Shown here: positions 778 through 24,824 of the stretch, piece by piece | Position numbering within the stretch: position 1 is the first letter of the stretch | Layout: each line of letters starts with the position of its first letter | Source of the DNA: Lachnospiraceae bacterium | GTDB lineage: Bacteria; Bacillota; Clostridia; Lachnospirales; Lachnospiraceae | Length of the DNA: 64,000 bases | Direction of reading: 5' to 3' | Assembly (NCBI GenBank): GCA_028693165.1 | Contig: JAQUVX010000005.1 | Location: 1 to 64,000, forward strand | Translations under genes and position numbers: made by a program | The notes under the pieces: model-generated | What the model was told of the DNA's origin: nothing | What the model saw: only the letters and a program-made list of their open reading frames with translations | The model's database searches: none

Positions 778-1395
778 TTACTTGTTTTTCCGCGGTGTTA
801 AATCAAGCAAAATATGGTGAAGTGATAAGCCATTTCCAACCACTGCTCGCATATGTACAGTCCGATAAACATAACAAAATCGATAGTATAATGAACAATC
901 CTCAAACTGATTTTTTGATGCTTTTTCTGGCAGTTTCTTTAGCATTAACTCTTTTAATTTATTCATATCTCCTGATTCAAGAAAAACAATCATTCCTGCC
1001 TGCGGCATACACTGACTGTATTCACCATCTTCAAAACGTTTTATCCCTTGACCGTAATACTCCATTTCAAAATTATAATTATTAATATTACTTTTTAAAA
1101 ACCGTTTGCATTCAAAACATATATATTGATCTTCTTTTAAATTATCTATATAGCAACAGATATCCATACGTTTAGTTTTTTCACCGGATTCATATGCAAT
1201 GGGAAAGTTGATATTAAAATCCCCCTTTTTCTTACGCATTATATTTACCAGTTCAGTTCTGCGCTGTTCTTCTTTTTTCAGTAAGGCTTTGCTTTTGTCG
1301 GAAATATCTCGATACGATTGAATAACTAATAAAATATAGTTTTCAATATAATTTCTTCGAAACAGTTCAAACCAGGATGGAGTATTAATTTTCAT
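778..1395 (-). CDS. Putative PD-(D/E)XK-like nuclease paired with the methyltransferase
   Basis: A 205-residue protein. The region around residues 77-98 reads RMDIC, then about 15 residues, then FECKRF, giving D78 and E95-x-K97. This matches the D...ExK metal-binding core of restriction-type PD-(D/E)XK nucleases. The family call rests on that motif alone. The start ATG follows GAGGGGATAGCC and overlaps the end of the methyltransferase gene by 11 bases, so the two are probably translated together. The likely role is the cleaving partner, or a regulator, of a restriction-modification or phage-defence unit. It has many Cys and Lys residues and no membrane segment. Confidence 0.5.
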   Translation of the reverse strand: MKINTPSWFELFRRNYIENYILLVIQSYRDISDKSKALLKKEEQRRTELVNIMRKKKGDFNINFPIAYESGEKTKRMDICCYIDNLKEDQYICFECKRFLKSNINNYNFEMEYYGQGIKRFEDGEYSQCMPQAGMIVFLESGDMNKLKELMLKKLPEKASKNQFEDCSLYYRFCYVYRTVHMRAVVGNGLSLHHILLDLTPRKNK

Positions 1396-4315
1396 GGCTA
1401 TCCCCTCTTGCGTTCATAATCTGACGAGTAATATCAGCTGCAACCTTTCTAGCTTTTCCGATTGTCCAGTTCTTCCGATCTTTAGTTTGTATAATGCTAA
1501 ATCCGCTATTTTCGAACATTATAATTTTATTTTGTATTAACAGTCGACTGTTTATACGCTCTAGTCCAGCCATTCCAGAGACATCCACTAGCCCTTTATC
1601 TAAAGAATCCTCTATACCAAAATAGAAACGAACAATGGTGTAATATTCACCTATTTGTTTTTGACTTTTCCACAAAATCTCATTAGCTTCTGTCATATAG
1701 TAATTAAAATAGTTACATAGACAGTCAGCGTATGTTTGATAATCGTACTCTTCAGCAAAATCATTGGCCTTATTTTCAAATCTATTTATGCCCTCATCAA
1801 TCAGAGAAATTTGAAAATCATCCAGTTCATATAAATAATATACTAACGCATCTAACTCCTTTTGAAGATTAGCTTTTACATTTGAATTCTGACTAAATGG
1901 ATTGCATTTTTTTGTGTTCCAATCTTCATGGACTACCGCTTCCATTTGCTCTACAAGACTAACCAATTTTGCAATAGTCTGATTATCTTTTTGATATAAT
2001 GGCATTGGAAATCGCAACACATCTTCCTTTACAACCTCTGGTTTCTTTGCTGCTTTTACTTTTGTCATGTAGAAACTATAGTAGCGAAATACTTTGGAAT
2101 TCAAAATTCCCTCTAAATATCGCAAGAGCTCTGTATTTTTACCAGTGTAATCATTAAATGTTGAGAAATCGTTACTGAATATTACTGGTTCGCTGACATA
2201 AGCTGCCCCCCAGCAGTTCTCATTATAAGTTCTTTTTATTAGAACTTTAGCTGCACAAACATACATACGCAAATCCCTTGGCCTATCATAAAGCACATCT
2301 GGTGACACCTCTGGAATATCAACATAGTTCACGCCATATGGCATAAAACATCCTTTTAGAGAACCACCTTTATAACCGCTAAACTCCGGACATTTTCTAC
2401 CGTTTTTAGCAGTAATATATCCCTGAACAAACTCTAGTTTTCCATCTATGCTAGAACTTAACATCGGAAACCGTTTTAAATGTTCAATACATTCGATATC
2501 GAACTCGTCTCCATAAGTAAGAATTGTCCATAAATATTCCCGGTCATCAAATTTATGCTTACTTATCACAATTTCGTCATTTTTGTCATATATAAATTGA
2601 TGCAATAAACGAAACAACATATTGGGATGAAATGCATAGTAGCAAAAATTATAATTTAGTTCTTGTTTACAGCAATAAGTCAATATGGAACATGGATATG
2701 TAGCATGAACAAACAGTTGAGCTTTTATAGCTTCAAGATTTATCACCTGTTCCACACGGTATTTTGATAATAGATACTTCAAATAATGTTTACTATTTTT
2801 GTTAGTAAAAATCGCATTTGTTACAAGCAAAGAAACTATTGTTTTCTCATTTGCAAAATCACTTGCCCGACTGATAAAAGCCTGAGCAATTTGAGCATCC
2901 GCAATAGGTATATTTTTAGCTAAACAGTATGAAACGTGATCTGATTTTGGTATACTTTTCCAAGGCGGGTTGCCAACAATAATGTCCATATTTTTTTTAT
3001 ATAGCTTTTGATCGACTTTTTCAGAGAAAAAACTACCCTCAATCAGATTTTTTCCGATTAAATTGGGAAAGCGGAACTGATTCTCGGTTATATCTTTTGG
3101 AGTTAATTCATCTAGCAATGCAATATACAAGCTAAAACAACTGATTTTTAATGCGCCGAGATTGATATCGACACCATAAATCATATTTGCCATCAAATTA
3201 CTAAGTGTTTCTGCATCAAGTACTGTTTTCTCTTTTTTTAGTATATCAATTTGCTGCTTAAATGCACTTACCAAAAATACACCCGATCCACAAGAAGGAT
3301 CAAGTACGCAAGGAATTGTATCTTTATTTGAATATCGAGAAAAACTCTGCTGAACCATATAATCAGCTAAGTAATGAGGTGTATAAAATGCCCCTGCCCC
3401 TGCAGCTTTCTTTTCATTCTTCCATTCATCATCTATAGAAAAAAAGGTCTCATAAATATTACTGATTAACCCAATAGGAATGACAGAAAAATCATAGGGA
3501 AATAATTTCAATTGACTATTTCCATCCTTAAAGAAATCTTCGCCTTTAAAAAAACGACAAAACACAGTTAGCTGATCTGGCAATGGTAATGCTTCTTTTT
3601 GTATCATAAATAAATCACCATTGAATCGTTCTTTTAAAAAAGAAAAAAAAGAATATACATCTTCGGTATTTTTTCTCTCTAACAATTCAGAAAAAGACGA
3701 AACATTCCACTTGTCATATGCCCTTTCAGTTAGCATCTGGCGATCTTCCAAGTATTTAACAAAAATACACTGTGACATAAAATTATATGCATTTTCTATC
3801 TTCATACCATGCTTCGTATGAGCAAGTACAACAGCGCTTTTTAAGTTGAAAAGTAGTTGTTTATCTACCCTGTCACTTGAATTTGAAAGCTCCGATAATC
3901 GTTCCCAGACGACCCTTGTAGAAACTCTGGATGCCCTCAAATCATCCAGTAACCAACTACCTTCATCGCCTTTTGTGCTATTATAAAGTAATGACCTGCC
4001 TTTTCGACAAGAGAAATTATTATATATCCTAAATTCACCAGGAAGAATCAGAATAGAAATTGGAACATCATTACGGTTCCAATAAAACAAATGCAGCTTT
4101 ACGATGATATCTTCGTCGATAGAATCTATTCTTTTTATTCCTATGAAAGGATATTCTTTATACTCTGATTCAATATAATAGCAATAGTCATAAATCCCCT
4201 CGTCATCAGGACGATAAAAAGGACTTGTCTCATACTCAAGAACATGTATTAACTGACGATAGATATCTTCCCTAAGTATTTTATTGCTATTTTCAAAAAC
4301 TTGTTGTTCAACCAT
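1385..4315 (-). CDS. Type IIG/Eco57I-like adenine-specific DNA methyltransferase
   Basis: A 976-residue protein with the hallmarks of an N6-adenine DNA methyltransferase. FYTP at 310-313 starts the methylase domain. DPSCGSGVFL at 339-348 is the S-adenosylmethionine motif I. NPPW at 449-452 is the catalytic motif IV. The roughly 300-residue N-terminal part and the C-terminal part (probably target recognition plus a helical tail) are typical in length for large type IIG, ISP or PglX-like enzymes. The downstream gene with a D...ExK motif suggests a defence unit, with this protein marking self DNA. AGGAGG lies 13 bases before the ATG. Base composition is A+T-rich, unlike the flanking rlmD relic, which points to horizontal transfer. 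Which defence class it belongs to cannot be settled by eye. Confidence 0.8.
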   Translation of the reverse strand: MVEQQVFENSNKILREDIYRQLIHVLEYETSPFYRPDDEGIYDYCYYIESEYKEYPFIGIKRIDSIDEDIIVKLHLFYWNRNDVPISILILPGEFRIYNNFSCRKGRSLLYNSTKGDEGSWLLDDLRASRVSTRVVWERLSELSNSSDRVDKQLLFNLKSAVVLAHTKHGMKIENAYNFMSQCIFVKYLEDRQMLTERAYDKWNVSSFSELLERKNTEDVYSFFSFLKERFNGDLFMIQKEALPLPDQLTVFCRFFKGEDFFKDGNSQLKLFPYDFSVIPIGLISNIYETFFSIDDEWKNEKKAAGAGAFYTPHYLADYMVQQSFSRYSNKDTIPCVLDPSCGSGVFLVSAFKQQIDILKKEKTVLDAETLSNLMANMIYGVDINLGALKISCFSLYIALLDELTPKDITENQFRFPNLIGKNLIEGSFFSEKVDQKLYKKNMDIIVGNPPWKSIPKSDHVSYCLAKNIPIADAQIAQAFISRASDFANEKTIVSLLVTNAIFTNKNSKHYLKYLLSKYRVEQVINLEAIKAQLFVHATYPCSILTYCCKQELNYNFCYYAFHPNMLFRLLHQFIYDKNDEIVISKHKFDDREYLWTILTYGDEFDIECIEHLKRFPMLSSSIDGKLEFVQGYITAKNGRKCPEFSGYKGGSLKGCFMPYGVNYVDIPEVSPDVLYDRPRDLRMYVCAAKVLIKRTYNENCWGAAYVSEPVIFSNDFSTFNDYTGKNTELLRYLEGILNSKVFRYYSFYMTKVKAAKKPEVVKEDVLRFPMPLYQKDNQTIAKLVSLVEQMEAVVHEDWNTKKCNPFSQNSNVKANLQKELDALVYYLYELDDFQISLIDEGINRFENKANDFAEEYDYQTYADCLCNYFNYYMTEANEILWKSQKQIGEYYTIVRFYFGIEDSLDKGLVDVSGMAGLERINSRLLIQNKIIMFENSGFSIIQTKDRKNWTIGKARKVAADITRQIMNARGDSHEN

Positions 4316-4560: not shown

Positions 4561-4737
4561 CTATTTTAGACCCAAATCGACGATTGTCTCGACATTCGCC
4601 GTCCCCGGAAACATATCCACCGCACACGCCTTCACCATCCGATACCCCCGCTCCTGCAGCACTGCCAGATCCCGCACCAGGCTGGTCGGCTTACAGGAGA
4701 TGTAGACCAGGCGGTCCACGCCAAAATCGATGATCTT
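4561..4737 (-). pseudogene. rlmD: Displaced 3' end of host rlmD
   Basis: These bases encode the last 57 residues of an RlmD-type 23S rRNA uracil methyltransferase in the host version. They include the catalytic-loop motif YISCKPTSL and the MFPGTANVET motif with its Glu. Read on the minus strand, the segment begins at the recombination point, where DKI of the intact gene would continue into IDFGVDRL. It has no start of its own from host DNA and is the piece cut off when the prophage entered. The matching 5' part is the gene at 54539-55978. It is G+C-rich like the host genes and unlike the restriction genes beside it. Confidence 0.9.
4733..4737. other. Left attachment site core (ATCTT)
   Basis: ATCTT here and at 54717-54721 is the only identity at the two prophage ends that rejoins the host rlmD reading frame. 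Joining host sequence left of it to host sequence right of 54721 gives the uninterrupted codons for LDKIIDFGVDRL. Short cores of a few bases are usual for large serine recombinases. The phage arm to the right contains ATTAGGTGTG about 13 bases away, roughly inverted with respect to CACCCTAAT at the other end. Confidence 0.8.
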
Positions 4738-4795
4738 GATAAATGCGCTTATTAGGTGTGTTATAGAAATCAATTATAAATGGAAGGAGAAAAAT

Positions 4796-5035
4796 ATGCA
4801 AGGATATAAAATACCGCATAAAGTGCGGGTAAGCAATCTCAAAAGAAAACGAATAGAACGAGGAATAAAGCAGGCTGAACTGGCTGATTTATCGGGCGTA
4901 CCGTTAAAATGCATCGGTAACTATGAACAGCTCCGTCGTGATATAAATAGGGCGCGCGTTGATATAGTTTACTCTTTGGCCGCTGCTTTAAATTGCCGGA
5001 TTGAGGAACTCTTGGAAGGCAAGGATCTTTTATAA
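4796..5035 (+). CDS. Small XRE-family helix-turn-helix regulator
   Basis: A 79-residue protein. Residues about 13-70 form a Cro/C1-type helix-turn-helix: LKRKRIERGIKQAELADLSG contains the recognition helix pair, and the end RIEELLEGKDLL is typical of small XRE proteins. The start chosen is the ATG after GGAAGGAG. It is one of only four phage genes reading rightward and lies directly inside the left attachment site, followed at once by a strong two-way terminator. This isolated position suggests expression in the lysogen, perhaps controlling late genes or acting on a host promoter. Its target is unknown. Confidence 0.75.
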   Translation: MQGYKIPHKVRVSNLKRKRIERGIKQAELADLSGVPLKCIGNYEQLRRDINRARVDIVYSLAAALNCRIEELLEGKDLL

Positions 5036-5041
5036 TAAAGC

Positions 5042-5105
5042 CCCCCAGAACGTAAAAAGAACCCCGATCCGCAACCGCAGCGGGGTTCTTTTTACGTTCT
5101 GGGGG
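5042..5105. terminator. Bidirectional terminator with a 25-bp perfect stem
   Basis: Positions 5042-5066 and 5081-5105 are perfect inverted complements separated by 14 bases. The stem contains AAAAAG on one side and CTTTTT on the other, outside a G+C-rich inner hairpin (AACCCCG/CGGGGTT). This is the layout of a terminator that works from both sides. It separates the rightward XRE gene from the leftward lysis operon. Confidence 0.9.
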
Positions 5106-5184
5106 CCAGGTTTTTATCCCATGAGACCCCCTCCCGCCGCACATCTTACTACAACTTTCTGGATCAGTCAGGCGGAAAATCCGA

Positions 5185-5955
5185 CTATTTTTTCAAGTAT
5201 GCACTACTGCAAAATCCGGTATGGGTTGCGCCGTTGATCTTGGCCACTACATAATACCATTTCTTTCCGCCCGCCGTCGTATAGTAGCCGTAATTCCGGA
5301 CTTCAGTGCCTTTTGGCATAACGACCAATGACGCCTTTTCTGTACCGGCTCCGGCCCTCAGATTAAGGTTCGCGGTTATCTTGTAGGCTCCGGCGATGCT
5401 TTTATCATAGCTCTTCGCCGTCTCAATCCTGGTTGTGACGGGCATCGCGTTGGTTCTTCCGTCCGTCACAACTACCGTGTGCCCCTTCGTCTTGGTTACC
5501 AGTACGCTGCCGGTATATAATGTCATTCCGGCCGTATAGGCTACGCGTTCATGGAAGAGCCCGGTTGCTTCCAGGGCATCCGCCTCGCCTGCTGTTGTGA
5601 AGTTGCCCGGATCTTTTCCTGATGCTTCTTTTACGCATTGTCGAACCAGGCTGCTGCAGTCACATTCCGTTTTCTTCGTCGTGCCGGTTCCGTATGTAAC
5701 TACTCCCAGGCGGTTTCCTTGGTCGTAGCCCAGATTGGGATTGTTGCATGCCTGCTTCATGGCTTCGGCGATCCCTTCGGCGATCGCTGCCGTCTTCGGC
5801 CGGAGTACATACCAACCCTTTTTATGCACGTAAAACTCCTGCATGCTTACCTCTCCGGAGAAATCCGATACGGCCGTCTGCAGCTGATCTCCGGACATCC
5901 CGCCGCTATAAGTTCCATCTTCATCTACTCTTGCGCTGCCGATAATGGTGCTCAT
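5185..5955 (-). CDS. Endolysin (NlpC/P60-like amidase/peptidase with C-terminal SH3)
   Basis: A 256-residue lysis enzyme. The N-terminal ~170 residues contain ECDCSSLVRQC, the catalytic-Cys motif of NlpC/P60-like cysteine peptidases, and KGHTVVVTDG with the expected His. The last ~65 residues (NLNLRAGAGTEKASLV ... GFCSSAYLKK) form a bacterial SH3 cell-wall-binding domain. It would cut peptidoglycan after holin-mediated release. It ends the lysis operon just before the two-way terminator and lies two bases from the holin gene. There is no signal peptide, as expected for a holin-dependent lysin. Confidence 0.88.
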   Translation of the reverse strand: MSTIIGSARVDEDGTYSGGMSGDQLQTAVSDFSGEVSMQEFYVHKKGWYVLRPKTAAIAEGIAEAMKQACNNPNLGYDQGNRLGVVTYGTGTTKKTECDCSSLVRQCVKEASGKDPGNFTTAGEADALEATGLFHERVAYTAGMTLYTGSVLVTKTKGHTVVVTDGRTNAMPVTTRIETAKSYDKSIAGAYKITANLNLRAGAGTEKASLVVMPKGTEVRNYGYYTTAGGKKWYYVVAKINGATHTGFCSSAYLKK

Positions 5956-5956
5956 G

Positions 5957-6271
5957 TCATTCGCCTCCTGTCTTAGACGTGATCTGTGAGATTGCCTGTA
6001 TTACCTTGTCATACCCAACCATCGCGGATAGCCAGGATAATAACATCAATGCGATCAGGTATACTGCCATCTTTTCGTTTAAAATTGCGCTGGTCAAAAT
6101 AATGTAAGCTGCGCCGACCGCAATACTTAATACGATCGCAATGATTCCGGCCAGCAAATTGGAATAGTACGTTTTTTTCAACTCGTCGAGCTGCTTCTTT
6201 ACCGCCTCCGTCGCCAGTCCGGTAAAGGTTGATACAATAAGCAACATGATTAAAAATACAGCTAAGCTCAT
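5957..6271 (-). CDS. Holin
   Basis: A 104-residue membrane protein with about three hydrophobic segments (residues ~3-20, 40-62 and 68-85) separated by a Lys-rich loop (KKQLDELKKTYY), and a short charged tail. Size, topology and position directly before the endolysin gene fit a phage holin that forms membrane lesions at lysis. Its start overlaps the end of the gene upstream by four bases. Family assignment is by context and topology, not by a diagnostic motif. Confidence 0.7.
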   Translation of the reverse strand: MSLAVFLIMLLIVSTFTGLATEAVKKQLDELKKTYYSNLLAGIIAIVLSIAVGAAYIILTSAILNEKMAVYLIALMLLSWLSAMVGYDKVIQAISQITSKTGGE

Positions 6272-6564
6272 AAACTGCCTCCTTCTGCCGGATCTTCCCG
6301 GCGCTCTTTCTTCTTGTAGTCCCTGTCTTCCAGCTCCTGCTTTCGTTCCCGGCTCTTATCCTTGTTAGTCCGGATCCAACCGCAAATGCCGCATTCCCCT
6401 ATCGTTGCCGCAATGACGGCACAGGCGTATGTCTCCGGAATTGATCCGATTTCCCGGTAGATCTGCAGCATCTGGGCGTTGAAATAGATAAAAAATCCGA
6501 AAACAAAAGCAAGAATGATGTTGAGGGTTCCGATCCGGCTGAACCATTCTTTTACTTTCTTCAA
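6268..6564 (-). CDS. Small membrane protein of the lysis cassette
   Basis: A 98-residue protein with two hydrophobic segments (residues ~13-30 and ~45-63) and a highly charged C-terminal tail rich in Lys, Arg and Glu. It overlaps the holin gene by four bases. Likely roles are a second holin, antiholin or lysis regulator, inferred only from position and topology. No recognised domain is visible. Confidence 0.6.
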   Translation of the reverse strand: MKKVKEWFSRIGTLNIILAFVFGFFIYFNAQMLQIYREIGSIPETYACAVIAATIGECGICGWIRTNKDKSRERKQELEDRDYKKKERREDPAEGGSL

Positions 6565-6576
6565 ATCGCGCCCTCC

Positions 6577-6930
6577 TTAGTACAGATCCTTGATGCCCTG
6601 CCGAGTCAAAAAATCTTTCTGTTCGTGTTTGATCTCTGTCGCATAGTTGAGCGCTGCATCCATGTCGCCGTTGCACTTCGCATCCGGGATCCGCTTGACG
6701 GCCCGAGCTGTCGCCTCGCCCAGGGCCAGTGCAGCTCCTACGCTTTTGATCAGCAAATACTGGTTCTGTTCCCTGGCCTGCTCTCTCTCATCCACGTCCT
6801 TCTGGCGATCGGCTCGCTCTGCCTGCTCTTTCCTTTCCCGCACCTGCAGACGGTGCTCAATCAACCAGAAGCAAAAACCTGTCACTGCGCTGGGTACTCC
6901 CATCGCAATAAAAAGCGCTGATACGTCCAT
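6577..6930 (-). CDS. Membrane-anchored coiled-coil protein of the lysis cassette
   Basis: A 117-residue protein with one N-terminal membrane segment (residues ~4-23), followed by a charged helical stretch (RLQVRERKEQAERADRQKDV) likely to form a coiled coil, and a C-terminal helical part. Its position between tail-associated small genes and the holin suggests a spanin-like or lysis-regulating role, but no motif supports that. It is unrecognised. The codon use and ribosome site (GGAGAAAGAG before the ATG) support it as a real gene. Confidence 0.6.
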   Translation of the reverse strand: MDVSALFIAMGVPSAVTGFCFWLIEHRLQVRERKEQAERADRQKDVDEREQAREQNQYLLIKSVGAALALGEATARAVKRIPDAKCNGDMDAALNYATEIKHEQKDFLTRQGIKDLY

Positions 6931-7029
6931 CTCTTTCTCCTGCCTCCCTTCTTTTTGATTTAAACGGCCCGCTTGGCGCTCTGACCGCCCACGGTTCCGT
7001 TTTCTCTTTGTACCCTAAGAAGTGTTCGA

Positions 7030-7215
7030 CTACTCGATTCCTGCCCGAGTTTCGGCCGCCTGGTTGATTCTGGCAACGCAGGAAAGGTTGTCCAATTCAT
7101 CCGGGGATATATGCTGCGCCAGTAGTTGGAAAAGCTCATTGATGACGCCCGCCTGAATGGAAATTATGGCATTCTGGGAATCGATGATTTCCACGGTATT
7201 AAGATTCCGGCTCAT
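7030..7215 (-). CDS. Small hypothetical tail-region protein
   Basis: About 61 residues, beginning MSRNLNTVEIIDSQ. The start chosen is the internal ATG preceded by GGGGGAA. It overlaps the end of the XkdX-like gene by 17 bases, so translation is probably coupled. A longer reading with an Arg-rich leader is possible but lacks a ribosome site. No recognised domain. Confidence 0.55.
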   Translation of the reverse strand: MSRNLNTVEIIDSQNAIISIQAGVINELFQLLAQHISPDELDNLSCVARINQAAETRAGIE

Positions 7216-7348
7216 ACGGTTCCCCCGTGATCTGCTCATATTCCTCCGCCGTGATCCCAAGCTTCTTTCCTGTCAGATTCTGCAACCTCGCTTTTGTGTA
7301 AAGCCCCTTTTCGTAGTATGATTTAAACTTTAAAAAATTTTTGCTCAT
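7199..7348 (-). CDS. XkdX-like small phage protein
   Basis: A 49-residue protein, MSKNFLKFKSYYEKGLY..., with the pattern of the XkdX family of tiny proteins found after tail-fibre genes in phages of Firmicutes (W/F-x2-Y-Y-x-KGLY, then K-x-G-I-T-x2-EY-x2-ITGE). The start is the ATG preceded by GGAGGGAT, four bases after the previous gene. The function of the family is unknown. Confidence 0.7.
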   Translation of the reverse strand: MSKNFLKFKSYYEKGLYTKARLQNLTGKKLGITAEEYEQITGEPYEPES

Positions 7349-7352
7349 GCTC

Positions 7353-7694
7353 TTATCCCTCCAGTTCAATGTCCGCCATGGCCGCGATATAATCAATATC
7401 GGACCGGTTCTGTTCCGCCTTCGCCTGCAGCTTGGCGATGATGTCCGCCTGGCTCAAGGCGTTTTCCGATTCCCACTCGGCTCCGTATTCTCTCCAGGCA
7501 TCAATGTTCGCCTCAATGTCTTCCCGGCTTTCGGTCGCCTGGAAATAGATTTCGTCGTACTCATAGCCCGGGCCTTCCTCGTTCTCTGTCTCGTGGATGT
7601 TTTCCCGCAGGTATACCTCCGCGATCCCTGATGCCAAAATGTAGTAAGCCAGGGCGCCCGGCCTTGTGTTAGACTGCACATTGCTCGTAAACAT
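7353..7694 (-). CDS. Small acidic tail-region protein
   Basis: A 113-residue acidic protein beginning MFTSNVQSNTRPGALAYYIL, rich in Glu, Asp and Tyr. The start follows AGGAGAA. It overlaps the end of the reverse transcriptase gene by 26 bases and precedes the XkdX-like gene. It is not similar to the accessory variability determinant (Avd) of classical DGRs, which is a basic helical-bundle protein. A DGR accessory role cannot be excluded because of its position. It could equally be a fibre-assembly protein. Confidence 0.6.
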   Translation of the reverse strand: MFTSNVQSNTRPGALAYYILASGIAEVYLRENIHETENEEGPGYEYDEIYFQATESREDIEANIDAWREYGAEWESENALSQADIIAKLQAKAEQNRSDIDYIAAMADIELEG

Positions 7695-8982
7695 AGCTTA
7701 ATTCTCCTTTCTTCCTTCTGTTTTCTTGTCGTGCTATGGCGCTTATAATTCCGGCTGCATACTCAAAAACCTCCGCCATGGAGTAATCTATGTACGCCTG
7801 CCTTGAATCTGAATGTTTAAAAAATCCTTTGTATGATGCAGTACGCGCTGCCTGGGTGCGCGTGAAAACTGTTCCGGCAAGTCTCCGGAGGATCATCCTT
7901 CGCGCCCGGACGAAATCCCGGCCGCGGATCGTTACCTTCCCGGACTGATGAACTACGAATCCCATCATGTCAATGCCTTCGCGGACGATCTCCTTGATAT
8001 GCCAGTTCTCCTTTATAGCGAAACCCAGGATGTCCTGCATAAAGCCTTTTAGGGATTCAACCGCCTTCTTCAGATACTTTCGGGAGCTGGAAAACATGGT
8101 TATATCGTCCATAAAAATAACCATCTTGTGAACCATCTGGATCTTTCTTTCCCGGCGTACTGCATGCAGGTTTTTCACATGCCGGCACGCGAAGGAGACC
8201 ATATACTGTACAGCCCATTGCGAAGGCAGCGCACCGATCATAAATCCCTCATATCCGTCCACCCGGTGCGAAGCAAGAAGGTATTGCCATAACCATAGAA
8301 GATCATTGTTCCCGCAATCCCTCCGGAACAGGGCCATGAATATCTCCAGCCGTGCGCTGTTAAAGCATTTCTTAATGTCCGTCTTAACAAAGAACCTGCA
8401 TTTCCGGGTATAGCGCTTTTTGTGCCGCTTCGCATATCTGACGGCCGCGTCATCCCGCCGGATCCATTTTTTAATCATCGCCACGCCGTACACCTGGCCG
8501 CGCTTTTCGATGCTGCTTGTCTGCTGCGGAACGATCCGGCGTTCAAAGATCGGCATAGCTCCGTAAACTGCTATATAATCCAGAACCTGCTGCATGGCGC
8601 TTTCGTTTCCGATTAGCCGTATCTTCTCGGTTGTCTTGTCAACGCGTTCTTTGATGTATACCCGTCTGAGGTGCGGATTCTTGGAGGCGATGTAGCTGCA
8701 TGCCGTTTCTGCGATCGATCGGACGGCGGCGTGGTACTGTTCCATCCGTTCGTTGTACTTTTCTGTGAATTTCTGGCGGCTTTGCTCCGGAATCCCGAGG
8801 TTCCGGGCATCATCCATCTTTATAAGCTCATAGTATCGCGATCGGGTCATTCCGTGGGCGCCCAGAAGATCTCGGAAATCATGCCGTTTCCAATGTCTCC
8901 TTACGCAATCCTCCACCCACGGAAGCACCGTCTCTACGTCTGTTATATCTATGCCTTTGCATAATCGGTGCAAGGTTATCAC
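7669..8982 (-). CDS. Reverse transcriptase of a diversity-generating retroelement
   Basis: A 437-residue protein with the reverse-transcriptase core at about residues 150-345. The palm motif FVKTDIKKCF (198-207) carries the first catalytic Asp, and IFMDDI (289-294) is the YxDD-box equivalent. IGALPSQ (249-255) matches IGxxxSQ, the substitution that marks DGR reverse transcriptases where group II and retron enzymes have QG. The C-terminal basic part (residues 355-437) would be the thumb. The start is GTG; the ribosome site is weak, so translation may be low. It lies just after the template repeat and after the target tail-fibre gene, the usual DGR order. It would copy template RNA into cDNA with errors at adenines. 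Confidence 0.93.
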   Translation of the reverse strand: MITLHRLCKGIDITDVETVLPWVEDCVRRHWKRHDFRDLLGAHGMTRSRYYELIKMDDARNLGIPEQSRQKFTEKYNERMEQYHAAVRSIAETACSYIASKNPHLRRVYIKERVDKTTEKIRLIGNESAMQQVLDYIAVYGAMPIFERRIVPQQTSSIEKRGQVYGVAMIKKWIRRDDAAVRYAKRHKKRYTRKCRFFVKTDIKKCFNSARLEIFMALFRRDCGNNDLLWLWQYLLASHRVDGYEGFMIGALPSQWAVQYMVSFACRHVKNLHAVRRERKIQMVHKMVIFMDDITMFSSSRKYLKKAVESLKGFMQDILGFAIKENWHIKEIVREGIDMMGFVVHQSGKVTIRGRDFVRARRMILRRLAGTVFTRTQAARTASYKGFFKHSDSRQAYIDYSMAEVFEYAAGIISAIARQENRRKKGELSYVYEQCAV

Positions 8983-9091
8983 TCTTTCTGAAAAGAACCG
9001 GGTTATCGGTTTCCCTACTCACCCGGCGTATTCTCTTTTGATTTTCGCCGCAGCGCAGATAGCATGAAGTACGTATTTTGATTACATTTTC

Positions 9092-9202
9092 AGAATGCCG
9101 GGCCAGGATGTTCCAGTTCGCGTTCCCAAGCGAATTGTTGCCGTTCAAGCAGGAAAGGCCGCCATTGCCAGAACCGTTGTTCAAGTTGCCGAAGGCCAGC
9201 CA
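9092..9202 (-). repeat. DGR template repeat (TR)
   Basis: 111 bases that match 9337-9447 with a constant offset of 245. In the sense (minus) direction it encodes a copy of the target tip dominated by Asn codons (WLAFGNLNNGSGNGG ... NANWN). AAY codons give the widest amino-acid choice without stop codons when adenines mutate. There are 22 sense adenines; 17 of them are substituted in the variable repeat. Only one other position differs, a silent C-to-T change at 9191/9436. Confidence 0.97.
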
Positions 9203-9278
9203 AAACAGAAGAAAGACAAGAAAAACACCCCGCACAAGGCTCCATACTACCTGTTATTGCTTGTGCTGTTGTTATATA

Positions 9279-9294
9279 AGGGGCACAAGCCCCT
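9279..9294 (-). promoter_or_regulatory. Hairpin downstream of the variable repeat
   Basis: AGGGGC and GCCCCT form a 6-bp stem with a 4-base loop, a few bases beyond the target gene's stop and about 43 bases from the variable repeat. Known DGRs, such as that of Bordetella phage BPP-1, use a short-loop DNA hairpin or cruciform at this place to aid retrohoming. No T-run follows on the minus strand, so it does not look like a plain terminator. Confidence 0.55.
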
Positions 9295-9303
9295 CTGGGC
9301 GGC

Positions 9304-11025
9304 TTACGCTGCCCATTCACCCCGATTACCGTTGGGAGAAAGCCGGGCCAGGAAGAACCAGGACGCGGGCCCAAGCGAAAGGTTGCCGATCAAGCAGGAA
9401 AGGCCGCCATTGCCAGAACCGGAGAACAAGGCGCCAAAGGCCAGCCACTCGCGTACTCCGGTAACCGCTGCATTCTTATAGAACGCATCCCGCGTATAGG
9501 TGCTTGAGCTGCCGCCCGTGGTGTTGGTCCCGAAGAAGATTCCTTTCGCGAAGGCAAGCTTCTTGATATACTCCCACTTTTCGGTCTCCGGCTGCAGGGA
9601 TTTCAGCCCGGATGCCTTATAATTTTCCGTGATGCTCGTCGCCTGGTTTGCGGTGCGGTCAACCAGGTACGGCTCATAGTAGTAGTTCTCGCCATCCTGG
9701 TACAACTTTAAAATCACGTCGGACATAACCTCATAGCCGCCTACCATGTACTCGATTCCCTGCAGGCGCGCTGCATATCTTCCGTTTCCTGGCGTCGCCG
9801 GAGATCCGTCCGGACCCAATATATGGTCGCAGCTGCCGTTTATCCAATGGAAAGTGGAAATGATGGTCGTTCCTTCGGCGTTGTCGCCGTTGGCTGCCGT
9901 GTTGAAGGTGTCAGTGGTGTCTACATATACGGCCGCGTAGGCCGTGCCGTCAATATTAACACTTTCGATCGCTGCGACCAACGCCCCGCCCTGTCCTGTG
10001 ATGGAATAGTTCGCACCCGTCCCGCGGTCTTTCGATGACCCGTTGTAGTTTCCAACGATAACGGACGATCCAACGATCAGATTTGCTGCTTCGGTCGGTT
10101 TCAGAAGTACCCGCTTTACGCCGTTTTCTGCCGCCTGGGCGAAATACTGATAGTTGTAGTTGATGCAGCCCTGTAGAACGCCGTCCAGGGTCATTCGGCC
10201 GTATTTGATGAATGCCATCAGCTGGACGAATGCGTAATCGATCACGCTTGATCCGCTATATCCAGTTCCGGTGGCTGCGGCCAGCGTATGCTCCGCGTTG
10301 TGCGAAATATTGTACGCCGTCGGGATCGCGCCGGAATAGCTTGTCATCTTTCCGCTCTCTGTGTGGTTCATGTATTTGCTGTGTACCACCCAGGGGCGCA
10401 TGGCGTTATCTGATGTCCGTACTGCTTCCGGCAACGGCTCGCAGTAGTCGTGTCCGGTCTGCTGCTCCGCTGAATATCCATGTATGTAGATATTCGCCTT
10501 TTCGTCGTACCAGTGCCAGCCTGCCTGCTGCATAACCCCAACGTATTTTTCCGGGTTTGCGCGCTCAAAGTTATCTGTGACACCCTCGATTGCCGTAATA
10601 ATCGGTTCCATGGTTGTGGCGTCTACGGTGTAGTTACAATCAACAACCGCAAAAAGCGGATGCCCGGCGTAGTCATCCTGGTTCGCCTCGTCATTGGTGG
10701 AAGGAACGCATACCAGCCCCGCGTTATCTCCTCCCTTCGTTCCGGTGGAAACCGCAGAACCGTCCGGCTGGCTGAACTCAACCCATCCGTTCCATTCCGT
10801 CCTGGTCAGCTCGTACCACTGATTGCATAACGCGGTAAGCCCGGCCGGTGTTGTTACGTTGACTCCATGGCTCAAAAACCACCACTTCATAGCTGCTCGG
10901 TACTTTCCCTGTGTGCCGTCAAAAAGCATGTTGTCGGAAATCAGCTTATCGATCCGGCCACTCAGGCTATCGTGTGAAGCTTTCAGATCCTCCAAATTAA
11001 CGATCTTAGATCCTGATACACTCAT
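9304..11025 (-). CDS. DGR target: variable tail-fibre/receptor-binding protein
   Basis: A 573-residue protein. The N-terminal ~45 residues (MSVSGSKIVNLEDLKASHDS) look like a fibre attachment and helical part. The long middle domain has Gly/Asn-rich segments. The last ~50 residues (REWLAFGALFSGSGNGG ... SWFFLARLSP) have the shape of the DGR C-type-lectin-like variable fold: a GxGNGG loop followed by scattered variable positions. Compared with the template, Asn has become Ala, Phe, Ser, Ile, Leu, Pro and others. It is the last fibre gene in the tail operon and the start follows AAAGGAGG. It very likely binds the host receptor and is retargeted by the adjacent retroelement. Confidence 0.93.
   Translation of the reverse strand: MSVSGSKIVNLEDLKASHDSLSGRIDKLISDNMLFDGTQGKYRAAMKWWFLSHGVNVTTPAGLTALCNQWYELTRTEWNGWVEFSQPDGSAVSTGTKGGDNAGLVCVPSTNDEANQDDYAGHPLFAVVDCNYTVDATTMEPIITAIEGVTDNFERANPEKYVGVMQQAGWHWYDEKANIYIHGYSAEQQTGHDYCEPLPEAVRTSDNAMRPWVVHSKYMNHTESGKMTSYSGAIPTAYNISHNAEHTLAAATGTGYSGSSVIDYAFVQLMAFIKYGRMTLDGVLQGCINYNYQYFAQAAENGVKRVLLKPTEAANLIVGSSVIVGNYNGSSKDRGTGANYSITGQGGALVAAIESVNIDGTAYAAVYVDTTDTFNTAANGDNAEGTTIISTFHWINGSCDHILGPDGSPATPGNGRYAARLQGIEYMVGGYEVMSDVILKLYQDGENYYYEPYLVDRTANQATSITENYKASGLKSLQPETEKWEYIKKLAFAKGIFFGTNTTGGSSSTYTRDAFYKNAAVTGVREWLAFGALFSGSGNGGLSCLIGNLSLGPASWFFLARLSPNGNRGEWAA
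9337..9447 (-). repeat. DGR variable repeat (VR)
   Basis: 111 bases at the 3' end of the target gene, aligned without gaps to 9092-9202. Of 18 differences, 17 fall at template adenines (sense strand), which become C, T or G. The unchanged stretches match exactly. It encodes the surface-variable tip of the fibre protein. Confidence 0.97.
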
Positions 11026-11040
11026 TTGTTTTGTCCTCCT

Positions 11041-11238
11041 TTATATTCCTAAATACTCCTTGGTTTCTGCAACGGTCGCGGATGTTACGGAAGCCGCTGC
11101 CGCCTCTGCCGCTTCCTGGCTTGCTGCAGCTGCTGTTTCTGATGCTGCCGCCTTCGTGGCGGATTCTGCTGCTTTTGCGGCCGCTTGCGTCGCTGCGTCT
11201 GCCTGTTTTTTGACTAGTGCAAGGGTTATTACATCCAT
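11041..11238 (-). CDS. Small Ala-rich helical tail-region protein
   Basis: A 65-residue protein, MDVITLALVKKQADAATQAA..., almost entirely Ala-rich helix ending TVAETKEYLGI. The start is the ATG after GAGGCGGGG, 17 bases beyond the preceding gene. The same C-terminal tag (TVAETREYLGF) ends the fibre protein at 11458-11976. This looks like a coiled-coil collar or chaperone segment of the fibre complex, but that is inferred from composition only. Confidence 0.65.
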   Translation of the reverse strand: MDVITLALVKKQADAATQAAAKAAESATKAAASETAAAASQEAAEAAAASVTSATVAETKEYLGI

Positions 11239-11254
11239 CTTCCCCGCCTCCTCT

Positions 11255-11440
11255 CTACTGCGCGATCCACTGGGCGCTTTCCTCGTCGTACATGTATACA
11301 GCACCCGTGTTGATCTCATAGAACGTTGATGCGTTCGGGATCGGAAGCCCGCTGTACGTTCCCATTGGCTTCGCGTCGGTGTTCTTGCCTGCCAGTGACA
11401 TTGGTTTCTGATAGATGTTTTCATTCATTGATGTTACCAA
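11255..11440 (-). CDS. Small fibre-associated protein
   Basis: About 61 residues containing MNENIYQKPMSLAGKNTDAK and ending YEINTGAVYMYDEESAQWIA. A TTG five bases after GGAGG is the best start; an ATG four codons later is the alternative. The ending (EINTG-x-VYMYDEE-x-W) is a pattern common in tiny proteins encoded next to phage fibres. No known function. Confidence 0.6.
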   Translation of the reverse strand: MVTSMNENIYQKPMSLAGKNTDAKPMGTYSGLPIPNASTFYEINTGAVYMYDEESAQWIAQ

Positions 11441-11457
11441 TCTCTTCCCTCCTCTTC

Positions 11458-11976
11458 TCAAAATCCTAAATATTCCCTAGTTTCCGCAACCGTCGCCACC
11501 TCGTCAAGCGTCAGGACGCCGCCGCTTCCAGGCTGAATCACTACGTTTTCCGCATTTCCTACGGAAATGTAGTCATAATATTTTAGCGATCCGATCGCAA
11601 CGCCGTTATAGGCGGACATCCATTCCGGCTTGTCCGGCTGTGCGACGATGATCGAATAAAGCACCTCTTTTCCATCTTCTCCGGCCGCGTAGATTCCGAT
11701 TTCTGTTACATAGTAACCGGCCGTGATCTTTTCGTTTGTTGCCGCAAGGAAAAGCTTGCAGGTTGCCTTATTTACCTCCTCCGCGCCAGTTACTCCGTAA
11801 CTGTTCTTTTCGGATTTTAACGCGGTCATTTTTGCGAGGGCTGCTTCGGTTTCTTTTCCGGTATAGGTTCCGTTACCGATTGCGAAGCGCGTAATCTGCA
11901 TCTTCTCGCCCGCGATTGTCCGCGCGTGAAGCTCCGCCCCTTTCTCCGTCAGGAGATTTTTAAAGATTTCTAACAT
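11458..11976 (-). CDS. Tail fibre protein with DUF3751-like N-terminus
   Basis: A 172-residue protein. Residues ~1-130 follow the phage tail-collar fibre N-terminal pattern: LLTEKGAELHARTIAGEKMQ, then FAIGNG, then VTEIGIYA and EVLYSIIV. The end carries TVAETREYLGF. It is shorter than full fibres (usually 300+ residues) and is probably an adaptor between baseplate and longer fibres. It resembles the N-terminal half of the 372-residue protein at 13552-14670, suggesting duplication within the fibre cluster. Confidence 0.72.
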   Translation of the reverse strand: MLEIFKNLLTEKGAELHARTIAGEKMQITRFAIGNGTYTGKETEAALAKMTALKSEKNSYGVTGAEEVNKATCKLFLAATNEKITAGYYVTEIGIYAAGEDGKEVLYSIIVAQPDKPEWMSAYNGVAIGSLKYYDYISVGNAENVVIQPGSGGVLTLDEVATVAETREYLGF

Positions 11977-11991
11977 GCATCAAGCTCCTTT

Positions 11992-13551
11992 CTATTCATC
12001 AGCCCTATAGATTCCATCAAGAACTGCAAGAACTTCACAGACCACGGTGTATGTTCCAGATACGTTTCCGCGGAACGGAGAAAGGGTGACTTCTCCGGAT
12101 GAACTCCTCGCGATTGATGCCCAGGCGTTGCGGTATGTCGAATCGTAATATTTGATCGTTGTAATCGGTATACGCTGGCTTTTGCCCTTGGATAGCGCAA
12201 CAACCACCGGGCCATTGTATTCCGTGCTTGGATATATTCTCATGATGATCGTATCCCATCCGGAATACAGAACCCCGAGGCTTACTTTGCGGTCTCCTGC
12301 CGTCCCGCTGTATCCGGTACAATTCAGACTTACGCTCGTACTCCAGCTTACTGGCTCACTTCTGGGCTCCGTTCCGTCAATGCCGCAGATCTTGTTTCCT
12401 TTCGCGATCTTCTTCGCCGTGATTGCCAGTGCATTTGCCATGATGGAAAGCGGAACCGCGAACAGTGTATTTGCCGTAATATATCCAGCCGTTGAGTTGT
12501 AGCGAATCTGTACCCGTTCAGTTTCGTCCGAGTTCTTGCTCTGGTATGCTGTATCTCCGAGCACCACCTTCGTGGCGTTGCTGCTGGTATGCGTAATCGC
12601 CGCATCCGCTGTTATGTTTTTCATGGTTCCAGGGCTCTTGATTCCCGAGGTGCTTGTAAACGTCTTATCCTTTAAGACCTCGCTCGGTGCTGCTGCCCCG
12701 AAGTCCGATGCCGGACGGTTTACATAGGAGCTGCCACTGCCCTGGTAATATCCTTGTGGTGGGCACATGTTGATTCGCTTTACTCCGTTTGTGTCCGCGC
12801 AAAGCTGCAAGCCATCTGCCTCCCGAGTTGGTACAGTCTTATATGTGCTGTTGATCCCCGGAACGGTTCCGTTTGTAGCGATTCCGGTATTGTCTGGCAT
12901 GGATCCGGGAATCTTTTTTCCGTTGACAAACGCCATGAATCCCTTTAATATCTGGGCTGCCACTGCGGCAACGTATCCGGAATCCGGTTTTGTTTGGCTT
13001 GCTAGATCTTTTGCGGTTACCTTACCTTCCCCATAAATTCCTTCGTTGATTGCGTAGCTTTCGCCGCAGGCCAGCGTCTTTGATACATTTCCGTAATCAA
13101 CGGCCCCTCCTTCGACCTTCCCGTCCTTGTTGTAGCCGATCATTCCCGCCCGGACGTCTTTCCTGGTTATATTTCCATCCGCGCCATACTCTCCAATGAC
13201 GTTACATACGGAATGTTTGTTCGCGATATGTTCAGCCGTGATCCCTAGGCTGTCTGGCGTAACACCCACATAGGCTCCGGTTCCGCCCGGGTAATCCCCA
13301 ACCGGCGGCACCATTGCGATCTTGGTTAATCCGTCGGAATCATTTGCTACTACATAATCATCCGGCGTATACAGGGGCTTGCCTCCGATCGTTGCTCCGG
13401 ATGCTTTCGCGCGATCCGGAAGCTCTCCGACCTGTTCTTCATCTGACCCGGATCCGAAGAAGATGTCGCCAGCCCTTACGTGCGCCGGGCTCGCGGTCAA
13501 GTGGTCGCTATCAACCGATCCGCCGCCGCCCATCATTTTTAATTCTTTCAT
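11992..13551 (-). CDS. Tail fibre/spike protein with internal repeats
   Basis: A 519-residue protein. A Gly-rich start (MKELKMMGGGGSVDSDHL) leads into a middle region with a repeated module. One copy begins near residue 68 (NDSDGLTKIAMVPPVGDYPG) and a second near residue 245 (ADGLQLCADTNGVKRINMCP, then PQGYYQGSGSSYV). Each is followed by a ...SxG(I/K) segment. The C-terminal ~150 residues look beta-rich and may be the distal head. It lies between two other fibre genes, one base before the next. The likely role is adsorption. Confidence 0.72.
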   Translation of the reverse strand: MKELKMMGGGGSVDSDHLTASPAHVRAGDIFFGSGSDEEQVGELPDRAKASGATIGGKPLYTPDDYVVANDSDGLTKIAMVPPVGDYPGGTGAYVGVTPDSLGITAEHIANKHSVCNVIGEYGADGNITRKDVRAGMIGYNKDGKVEGGAVDYGNVSKTLACGESYAINEGIYGEGKVTAKDLASQTKPDSGYVAAVAAQILKGFMAFVNGKKIPGSMPDNTGIATNGTVPGINSTYKTVPTREADGLQLCADTNGVKRINMCPPQGYYQGSGSSYVNRPASDFGAAAPSEVLKDKTFTSTSGIKSPGTMKNITADAAITHTSSNATKVVLGDTAYQSKNSDETERVQIRYNSTAGYITANTLFAVPLSIMANALAITAKKIAKGNKICGIDGTEPRSEPVSWSTSVSLNCTGYSGTAGDRKVSLGVLYSGWDTIIMRIYPSTEYNGPVVVALSKGKSQRIPITTIKYYDSTYRNAWASIARSSSGEVTLSPFRGNVSGTYTVVCEVLAVLDGIYRADE

Positions 13552-14670
13552 TTACGCCACCCCCTGCAGTCTGATCCTTAAGATCGTGGTAGGAACTCCA
13601 GCAAAACATTTAAATATTACCTTGCCCGTATCTGCATAGGCCCTTCCCTTTGCGAAAAATGTAGCCTGTGCCTTCATCTCCTTCGTCGCCACTGCAGCAT
13701 CACTGCTTAAAGCTCCGGGCCATACCGTAATATCGCTTTCTTCCGTTACGCCTTCGATCGCAACCTCGGCCGTATAAATCGTAACGCCGGATTCTGTTGT
13801 TGCCTTCCACCCGTCTGCTGCAATCTCAATCTCTCTTTCGGCAAACGTGGCCGTCTCTAGCTTGCTTGTCAGGCTCTTTACAGCTGCAATCGCATTCTTG
13901 TTAGCTGTGATCTGCAGCTGCAAAGTCTGCGAAGCCTCTGCGCCCAAGGGAAGTTTGAAATAATACCCGGATTCCTCATTATCAATCCAGAAATAGATTT
14001 CCGATGAATCCGTATCTACGTATAGCGCGTTTGTCTGACCATACTCCGGAAACTCTGCGAACGGCCGCGTAATAACCGGTGCAAAATTAACCCACTGCAT
14101 CTGATAGTCCAGATCTCCGATCTTAATTAGGTGCTGCCCTTCGATCCCACCTGCAAGGGCACGCCTCAATGTCGTCACCAACGTCCGGAGAGCAATGAAG
14201 TCCGAAGCGGCTACAACTGCGCCCGTTGTGTCTATGGTTACGTTGGCGGAATCGGCCACCTCCAGATTAACCCGCTCTGTGATTGTGGAAATCCCGATGC
14301 CATTATTCGCTGGAACGTAAACGGCCTGTGTATCTGAAACCAGAATGCAATATAGCAGTTCTCCGCCGTCCGGATTCTCTGCATAGATTCCCATTTCGTT
14401 AAGATAATACAATTCATCCAGATCCAGGTTGTTGATTACAATCTCAAGAACGACAGTCGCCGGATTTCCGTCCGGAATATCAACAGACGAAAACTCAAAA
14501 GCCTGCTTCTGGTTTTTGATGTCTTCCGCCGTCCGGAGGCTCTCGCCATCCGCCCACCTGCCGTCGCCGGTTCTGGCCCGCGTAAAATGGATCGTGCATT
14601 TTTCCGCCTGGGCTTTTGTGATCAGCTGCTTCGCTTGATCCGTCAATGCCCACCTTGAAAATATAGCCAT
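13552..14670 (-). CDS. Tail fibre protein (P2-like collar N-terminus)
   Basis: A 372-residue protein. It starts MAIFSRWALTDQAKQLITKA, followed by TRARTGDG and YYLNEMGIYAENPDGGELLY, the DUF3751/tail-collar fibre pattern that docks on the baseplate. Residues ~190-260 include WVNFAPVITRPFAEFPEYGQ and a YVDT...YFWID segment, and the C-terminus is beta-rich. It follows tail protein I as in P2-type phages and is probably the baseplate-proximal fibre. Confidence 0.78.
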   Translation of the reverse strand: MAIFSRWALTDQAKQLITKAQAEKCTIHFTRARTGDGRWADGESLRTAEDIKNQKQAFEFSSVDIPDGNPATVVLEIVINNLDLDELYYLNEMGIYAENPDGGELLYCILVSDTQAVYVPANNGIGISTITERVNLEVADSANVTIDTTGAVVAASDFIALRTLVTTLRRALAGGIEGQHLIKIGDLDYQMQWVNFAPVITRPFAEFPEYGQTNALYVDTDSSEIYFWIDNEESGYYFKLPLGAEASQTLQLQITANKNAIAAVKSLTSKLETATFAEREIEIAADGWKATTESGVTIYTAEVAIEGVTEESDITVWPGALSSDAAVATKEMKAQATFFAKGRAYADTGKVIFKCFAGVPTTILRIRLQGVA

Positions 14671-23387: not shown

Positions 23388-24824
23388 CTACGCTGCCTTC
23401 TGCAGGGCGCTCTGAATCAGTGATGGGTCAAATTCAATCTTGTTTGTAATGTGTTCCGCCGGGGTCCAGAATGCGATAGCTGTGTAAAAGATGATCTGCC
23501 CGTCTAAAATCTGATCAATCGGATTATCACTTTCTCTGAAATAGATCTTTCCTCCTGCAATGTGTCCGTTTGTGGAAAGGCTGTTTAAATACTGATTTTC
23601 TGCATCTGTCACGGCTTCGATCAAACGGTAATCGGTCGGATCATCAACCTTGTTTCCGAATGTCAGGATAAAGTGGGCCTTATACCAGTTCATCATCCGA
23701 CGGCAGGAAATCCACCGTTCCTCCGGTGCCGTTGCACCTGGAAAAGCTGTCGTATTGTTGCCCCATACCTTCCAGCCGTTATCGTTGAGGAAGGTTACGA
23801 TTCCAGCCGCATTAAGCACGGCCGCCTGGGTGTTATCCAGGTAAACCTCCGTTCCGTCCTCCAATACGGCGGCGGCCATGTTGGAGGCAATGTTGGACGG
23901 GCTTTTCTTCGGAACATCATCGTTCTCACTGTCGGTCGCGCAGGTTGCCGCAGCCCAGATTACGGAACCGTCATATACCTTCGTTCCAAGCTTCTGCTTC
24001 AGCCAGATCATGATACCGTCCTGGGAAGTGATCCCCATTGCATCACGCGCGCCTGCTGCAGCCGTGTACGTTTTATAGACGCTTGTATCAATGTCAACGG
24101 CAAAAACCGCCTCAAAAAGCCCGTTGATCTCTTTCGTCTTCGCTGCCATAACCGCGGCGACCTCCGGATCCCTGGACCAGCGCGGTGCCAAAAGGATTCC
24201 CGGAACCACCCCGAGGCGCGGGTAAACCTGGCTCAAGGCCTCGATTCCGGTTGCTTCGCCGGTCGATACATTGTAACCGCCGATGATATCGGTTTTTGTA
24301 ATCTTGCTGGGGTCGAGCTGTTTTCCGGTTACATCTACATTGGTAACGCTGGAAGAAGTAAATGTGATCTCAAGATAGCCCAACGTCGAAAAGCCCAGAA
24401 CGTAGTCCTCATTCTCATTGAGTGTTGCGCTGCCGTTTCTTACGGTCAATCCGGTCTTCATAATACCGACCTCCTCGATCGTAGCAATCCCGGAAGCAAC
24501 CAGAGCGCCGCTCTTGGTGTAATCTTTTACGTGCTTTTTCGGATCCAATACATTGATAAAAATGATTGGAGCATTAGAAAAAACATTAAAGTTCGCGTCA
24601 ATCGCCTGCGAAATCGTGTAATTCTCAAAATCATAGCAGAACCCCATCGCCGCCACGGCCTCTGCATAACTCCGTGCCATAACGGGCTTGTTGACTGCCG
24701 GATCGTCAACCATGTTCACGGGCGCGAGCCCTACGATTACCTGCAATCCAGCGTCCGCCTCTGCCGGGGTTGTCACCTGGGAGGGCAGCTCTTCGGCATC
24801 GATCCTGTGGAAATACTCAGCCAT
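23388..24824 (-). CDS. Contractile tail sheath protein
   Basis: A 478-residue protein with the sheath (P2 FI) pattern: LQVIVGLAPVNMVDDPAVNK near the start, GVVPGILLAPRWSRDPEVAA in the middle and a C-terminal domain with AHFILTFGNKVDDPTDYRLI and HITNKIEFDPSLIQSAL. Presence of a sheath shows the phage has a contractile tail. Confidence 0.93.
   Translation of the reverse strand: MAEYFHRIDAEELPSQVTTPAEADAGLQVIVGLAPVNMVDDPAVNKPVMARSYAEAVAAMGFCYDFENYTISQAIDANFNVFSNAPIIFINVLDPKKHVKDYTKSGALVASGIATIEEVGIMKTGLTVRNGSATLNENEDYVLGFSTLGYLEITFTSSSVTNVDVTGKQLDPSKITKTDIIGGYNVSTGEATGIEALSQVYPRLGVVPGILLAPRWSRDPEVAAVMAAKTKEINGLFEAVFAVDIDTSVYKTYTAAAGARDAMGITSQDGIMIWLKQKLGTKVYDGSVIWAAATCATDSENDDVPKKSPSNIASNMAAAVLEDGTEVYLDNTQAAVLNAAGIVTFLNDNGWKVWGNNTTAFPGATAPEERWISCRRMMNWYKAHFILTFGNKVDDPTDYRLIEAVTDAENQYLNSLSTNGHIAGGKIYFRESDNPIDQILDGQIIFYTAIAFWTPAEHITNKIEFDPSLIQSALQKAA

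Follow-up and report, generated by a model that had tools for sequence, protein, structure and literature searches.

The 64,000-nt stretch analyzed here (the window; Lachnospiraceae bacterium, assembly GCA_028693165.1, contig JAQUVX010000005.1, positions 1–64,000) carries, within an Epona-like contractile-tailed prophage, a diversity-generating retroelement (DGR), a reading to which we assign a probability of about 0.95. Its parts lie on the minus strand: a target gene for a 573-aa fiber-type protein (9304–11025) whose 3′ end holds a variable repeat (VR, 9337–9447), a template repeat (TR, 9092–9202), and the gene of a reverse transcriptase (RT, 7669–8982). DGRs, including those in gut phages of Firmicutes, are already well described, and 31,007 of them were counted in a metagenome survey (PMC8144416). 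The window DGR is genuine, unexceptional among those of comparable gut phages, and a rather divergent member of the kind.

Repeat pair, reverse transcriptase, and target protein

The adenine-specific repeat pair is the strongest evidence for the DGR. A direct-repeat search of positions 5000–13000 gave as its top family 9092–9202 and 9337–9447, each 111 nt long and 84% identical. On the minus strand the two copies differ at 18 of 111 positions, and 17 of these 18 fall on the 22 adenines of the TR (hypergeometric test for at least 17 of 18 at A, P = 9.9e-15). Because the mismatches concentrate on the adenines of this copy, 9092–9202 is the template and 9337–9447 the variable copy. The adenines changed to T (10), C (6), or G (1), and the sole remaining difference is a synonymous C>T at codon 530. 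Template adenines account for 75% or more of the differences in nearly all surveyed DGRs, as an outcome and not as a detection criterion of that survey (PMC8144416), and the window pair lies above this level. The VR is in frame as codons 527–563 of the 573-codon open reading frame (ORF), which ends 33 nt past it with the stop codon counted. Eight of the 10 AAY (Asn) codons of the template are altered in the VR, as are Ile558 and His562, and no stop is created; AAY codons cannot turn into stops by changes of A, so that changes at these codons are stop-free. Used as a DNA query against the 3.6-Mb assembly (E ≤ 0.1), the TR matched only itself and 9337–9447, indicating a single VR. The preliminary description of this DNA, made from the letters alone, had placed a TR/VR pair beside the RT and the fiber gene; the pair is real and its positions were right.

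The RT belongs to the DGR type. Its ORF is uninterrupted and encodes 437 aa, with a GTG start listed and an alternative TTG three codons in, and it matches RVT_1 (1.4e-9) and PHROG 1423, "Reverse transcriptase" (phrog_1423, 4.8e-43). DGR-type RTs are marked by [I/V/L]GxxxSQ together with a catalytic xxDD. The window RT has IGALPSQ and FMDD, and the earlier claim of a DGR-specific RT with IGxxxSQ and FMDD is upheld by both motifs, the open frame, and the family matches. Residues S254, Q255, D292, and D293 are invariant across 30 aligned RTs, an alignment that leaves out two loci deviating in these motifs (L009 and L013). As a single sequence the window RT matched no PDB chain at 0.01, and the profile of 30 related RTs placed 8ub7_A first (1.2e-36), with group II intron RTs behind it (1.3e-21 and weaker). 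We take 8ub7 to be the RT of the BPP-1 DGR; our literature search found no paper naming it.

Several relatives depart from these motifs. DGR-like RTs with YMDN replacing YMDD occur at L009 (MT836575.1, 4106–5494), which also has IGSYLSC, and at L216 (1342–2469), and both loci keep adenine-biased pairs (14/14 and 15/17 mismatches at A, respectively). The RT of L013 (MT836832.1, 524–1927) has FMDD, but IGGYLDA where IGxxxSQ is expected; its repeat pair has 7/7 mismatches at A, an 8-bp hairpin with a GTAA loop follows the VR, and it forms the longest end branch of the RT tree (2.86). FMDD was considered as a marker of a single lineage and dropped, as the RT tree requires four changes.

The target protein, like its relatives, has the VR at its C-terminus; it matches phrog_17147 (8.3e-133), a family of unknown function. 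A Pfam search of the protein returned no family, and the same search of 27 target-family members gave just two matches, in one member each. We infer that it is a tail fiber from the position of its gene and a remote Mtd-like similarity: hhalign of the window target family against the Mtd-like target of FP_Epona (MG711462, Eponavirus), a phage of Faecalibacterium prausnitzii, gave E 4e-5 and probability 70. The best PDB match of the target-family profile was TaqVP residues 341–381 (E 0.013, below significance), aligned in register with the VR of TaqVP, and these residues are the published VR of a C-type lectin DGR protein (PMC6328139). The Epona match and the sub-threshold TaqVP match together point to a likely tip of the CLec/FGE type, possibly an FGE/Mtd-kind C-type lectin VR domain.

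Candidate hairpins and the TR-RT spacer

A candidate hairpin or cruciform lies 21 nt 3′ of the VR. This structure (9296–9315, minus strand; TGGGCAGC-GTAA-GCCGCCCA) has a stem of eight positions with one A·C mismatch and holds the TAA stop of the target inside its loop, and a second hairpin, AGGGGC-TTGT-GCCCCT (9279–9294, minus strand), follows directly, with 3 of 50 shuffles doing as well. The DNA fold of a 91-nt stretch here was better than shuffles (z = −2.27; 2 of 200 matched it). In published phage DGRs the VR is followed after 4–34 bp by a hairpin with a GC-rich stem of 7–10 bp and a GRNA loop, and in BPP-1 the stop codon is boxed within the structure (PMC3240598). Counting the window, 65 loci had a pair suited to this comparison, and 29 of them have a stem score of at least 8 within 90 nt, where single-base shuffles expect 0.42. 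The nearest relatives (L047–L050, L052, and L053) have perfect stems of 9–11 bp, 25–31 nt past the VR, with GTAA, GTAG, or GCAG loops. By analogy with BPP-1 (PMC12875486), the 109-nt spacer between TR and RT (8983–9091, minus strand) is expected to contain the segment of the template RNA that recruits the RT and serves in priming. An Rfam search at gathering scores was negative.

Relatives of the DGR

The anatomy of the window DGR is shared by its wider family. We examined 94 relative loci (L numbers), including those from an alignment-guided IMG/VR scan that listed the best 80 of 509 relatives, chosen via one peptide pattern; L014 and L098 were dropped for want of an RT ORF, leaving 92 with the window excluded. 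An adenine-biased pair (template A accounting for at least 75% of the mismatches) was present in 66 of the 92, with 851 of 880 mismatches at A summed over these loci, and the order VR-TR-RT on one strand was found in 66/66. The 66 loci represent 61 distinct RT proteins (83 in the whole set). The target-TR-RT order on one strand, already described for the window, is therefore present there and in every adenine-biased relative, and this shared anatomy makes that of the window normal for its lineage. In a tree of 81 RTs the window groups with L047–L054 (support 100/95).

Among 99 genomes drawn from its own genus, family, and order, the RT was matched in four including its own, the other three at 26–31% identity. 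The target was matched only in its own genome among 24 of the same genus, and in two, its own included, among 397 of the same family (sampled evenly out of a larger group). The RT matched 27 records of the phage collection (20.8–29.0% identity), and the target matched seven. G255, a bacterial genome of the same family, encodes a target homolog (32–33%) and an FMDD RT (25% over 436 aa); its longer stretch (L226) has a 135-nt pair with 14/14 mismatches at template A, and its shorter stretch (L210) has no adenine-biased pair.

The prophage and its surroundings

The prophage extends over approximately 4677–54673 (~50 kb), between two rRNA-methyltransferase gene segments, with a shared 16 bp at 4677–4692 and 54658–54673. 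A tail sheath (23388–24824, minus strand; phrog_23, 2.4e-57), a large serine recombinase as integrase (53105–54550, plus strand; PF00239, 3.3e-41; PF07508, 7e-16), and terminase, portal, capsid, protease, tape measure, baseplate, and repressor genes agree with the contractile-tailed prophage first proposed. Upstream of the target lie a tail-collar fiber N-terminal-type protein (11458–11976, minus strand; PF12571, 4.2e-6; phrog_7037 tail fiber, 6.2e-33) and a second tail-collar fiber protein (13552–14670, minus strand; PF12571, 2.6e-8). Downstream of the RT are an XkdX-like small phage protein (7199–7396, minus strand; PF09693, 7.1e-11) and an endolysin-like gene (5185–5955). Between the latter and the left prophage end, a 30-nt inverted repeat (5042–5105; 93% complementary, arms 4 nt apart) is perhaps a terminator.

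The complete methyltransferase gene at the right end (54539–55978, PF05958) is presumably rlmD/RumA. The left segment (4561–4773) is at best 87% identical over 158 nt to genes of the host genus, and the 3′ end of the complete gene reaches 72% over 240 nt (by score), 77% over 149 nt, and 86% over only 70 nt. Since the left segment is closer to the host genus, the prophage probably sits in the methyltransferase gene and gives it a new, divergent 3′ end, the left fragment being the host-like C-terminus. A tRNA search of the window with ARAGORN was negative. The stretch 1385–4315, immediately left of the prophage, encodes an Eco57I-like restriction-modification methylase (PF07669, 3e-15). Judged by its UvrD gene, the host resembles Lachnospiraceae: the gene is 78% identical to an uncultured Eubacteriales MAG and 65% to [Clostridium] symbiosum, one short piece is 80% identical to Ca. 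Ventrimonas merdavium, and most remaining hits are Lachnospiraceae.

Replacement or divergence in the fiber slot

The window prophage is collinear with FP_Epona and also with two prophages, one from G486 (IMG/VR) and one from G010, a genome of its own genus. Identity to these three is 62–75% for TerL, 62–65% for the portal, 42% for the sheath, and 24–47% for tail genes, and identity to Epona and G486 is 67–80% for the helicase and 60–76% for the primase. In the stretches of G486 and G010, which have a TerL 75% identical to that of the window, the window RT found no tblastn match (E ≤ 1e-5), and the target found none in Epona, G486, or G010, so that profile comparison alone links it to the Epona target. 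Among TerL-related IMG/VR contigs, of which 34 of the 68 found were searched and many are fragments, nine had an RT match: four are Epona-type (63–64% to the Epona RT), four are nearest to other RTs of the Epona branch, none is nearest to the window RT, and L219 gave no ORF to classify. A 100/100 branch of the RT tree separates the window type from the Epona type, a result to be read with caution as the row of the window is long. Set against L220, L221–L223, L018, and L224, the window (5185–54550) has the backbone of Epona-type phages but, at the corresponding place, a DGR that is only distantly related.

The simpler reading of these sequences is that one DGR took the place of another within this slot. 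We put forward, as a tentative scenario and at less than even odds, that a compact Avd-free lineage (mostly with an FMDD RT and the stop in a GTAA-type loop), mobile as a target-TR-RT cassette, replaced a distant DGR in the fiber slot of an Epona-like myophage. Alternatively, the window DGR diverged in place from an Epona-type DGR with no swap, which we consider unlikely. The slot and gene order are those of the Epona DGR, the targets keep their remote profile similarity (E 4e-5), and tail genes overall are more divergent than most head and replication genes. Nonetheless, divergence in place has to accommodate an RT only 25% identical to that of Epona and without a tblastn match (E ≤ 1e-5) in the G486 and G010 stretches with their 75% identical TerL, as well as a 100/100 branch that parts the two RT types in a tree with numerous further phage RTs, a separation to be read with caution for long branches.

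Possible activity of the DGR

Change confined to the VR and to adenines occurs in the wider family, in relatives other than the window DGR. Ten near-identical groups were entered, and VRs could be compared in four. Within L093/L099/L100, the VRs differ pairwise at 4, 3, and 2 positions, and in L064/L065 at 4 positions, all at template A; the TR and the 1000 nt upstream of the VR are identical within each group. VR variation was also revealed by reads in other Faecalibacterium prophage DGRs, some of which are active (PMC11792537), and in the Mushu and Lagaffe DGRs, both with the accessory protein Avd (PMC5883640). By analogy with these relatives, and given its intact parts, the window DGR may well be active.

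Several observations weigh against the main reading. The bAvd model PF22296 had no match in the assembly of the window, with 14 control genomes equally silent, and the BPP-1 model loses most of its activity when Avd is inactivated (PMC12875486). The hairpin stem carries a mismatch, and its GTAA loop deviates from the published GRNA (PMC3240598). The best hairpin of the window is unremarkable (score 6; 3 of 50 shuffles as good), and the RNA fold of the TR-spacer stretch (8983–9250) is no better than shuffles (z = 0.27). Close relatives of the window DGR numbered zero in single-query scans, both with the RT (20 stretches from genome contigs and nine from viral contigs) and with the target (three stretches from viral contigs); the metagenome search suggested in the preliminary description did yield RT/repeat loci of the wider family from IMG/VR, though no close relative of the window RT or target. 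VRs are identical within L047/L048/L049 and within L072/L073. The branch leading to the window RT is long (1.7 changes per column), leaving its place in the tree unsure. Finally, 26 of the 92 loci had no adenine-biased pair by our heuristic (13 with another pair, 13 with none). In 10 of the 13 pairless loci the RT starts within 450 nt of the contig end (eight loci, and two at 1), so that the TR/VR may be missing there. The pair finder relies on 50-nt seeds; at L019 it picked another repeat (1/2) despite a listed pair of 14/14, and it trimmed the window pair to 58 nt, for which the direct 111-nt comparison stands.

Avd is usual but not universal in DGRs. Among 32 genomes or records of relatives, many of them fragments, the one with PF22296 matches was G010, from the genus of the window, which has three, including one next to a DGR (RT L019); this serves as a working control. 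G010 has two distinct DGR-type RT loci, L018 (9817–11130) and L019 (8846–9958), and its bAvd genes are L139–L141, one next to L019. The account of F. prausnitzii phages gives Avd for Mushu and Lagaffe only and not for Epona, so that Avd-free DGRs are already published (PMC5883640). Absent in Epona, Avd does not define a DGR, and that of the window would work without it. An N-terminal extension of the RT was considered as a substitute for Avd and dropped, as the RTs of the other branch are shorter there and likewise gave no bAvd match.

A genuine DGR that diversified its VR in the past and has since fallen silent, for instance through lack of the accessory protein or through the imperfect hairpin, is improbable. 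Silence would fit the assembly without bAvd, the stem mismatch with its non-consensus loop, and the failure to find relatives close enough to reveal recent variation. Against it stand the intact RT and target ORFs, a VR in frame and free of stops, and a single non-A difference between TR and VR; moreover, 31 of the 32 records of relatives, many fragmentary, also show no bAvd, yet the L093 and L064 groups vary in the VR only and at A only. An RT of another class (group II intron, retron, or anti-phage Drt) beside an unrelated duplication is scarcely credible: its sole NCBIfam match is group_II_RT_mat at 25 bits against a cut-off of 300 and no DGR-RT model matched, but the adenine-specific mismatches (P 9.9e-15) already contradict it, the repeat-target-RT order is kept in 66/66 adenine-biased loci, and the RT-family profile finds 8ub7, presumably the BPP-1 enzyme, first in the PDB.

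Proposed mechanism and meaning

A working DGR in the window would most likely proceed as follows. The TR-spacer region would be transcribed, and the RT would copy the TR RNA to cDNA, misincorporating opposite template adenines. The mutated cDNA would then replace the VR at the 3′ end of the fiber gene, aided by the hairpin just downstream, and the TR would stay unchanged, making the cycle repeatable. Altered residues, mainly from AAY codons, may lie on the binding face of a C-type-lectin-like tip and change receptor recognition. The purpose is probably recognition of changing hosts by the phage.

The window adds a divergent, apparently Avd-free DGR to the known gut-phage set. Mildly new are the collinearity with Epona-type phages, whose DGR at the corresponding place is only distantly related, and a candidate hairpin whose GTAA loop holds the stop codon. 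This natural pair, one phage backbone with two distant DGR cassettes in the same place, lets one ask whether DGRs move with the target gene as units.

Comparison with known systems

FP_Epona is like the window prophage in its collinear genome, large serine recombinase, and sheath, and it has a DGR in the same slot, between the tail-collar fiber and the XkdX/lysis genes, with 13/13 TR/VR mismatches at A and no Avd (PMC5883640). It is unlike the window in an RT 25% identical and on the other main branch of the RT tree, an integrase 24% identical, and an only remotely similar target.

The IMG/VR loci L047–L054 have the RTs nearest to that of the window (best L052, 36% over 371 columns), the same target-TR-RT order, a homologous target, and FMDD in all but L054. 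They carry IGSFLSQ or IGSYLSQ, whereas the window has IGALPSQ and is set apart by its long branch of 1.7 changes per column.

The Bordetella phage BPP-1, the prototype, whose RT motif we take to be YMDD, was compared only via the PDB match 8ub7 (presumably its RT) and differs in having Avd and a GRNA-type loop, whereas in the window no Avd was found, the RT has FMDD, and the loop is GTAA. Like BPP-1, the window DGR combines an RT with an adenine-specific TR/VR pair whose VR ends a tail gene, here a putative one (PMC3240598, PMC12875486), and the candidate hairpin past its VR contains the stop codon, as the BPP-1 structure does (PMC3240598).

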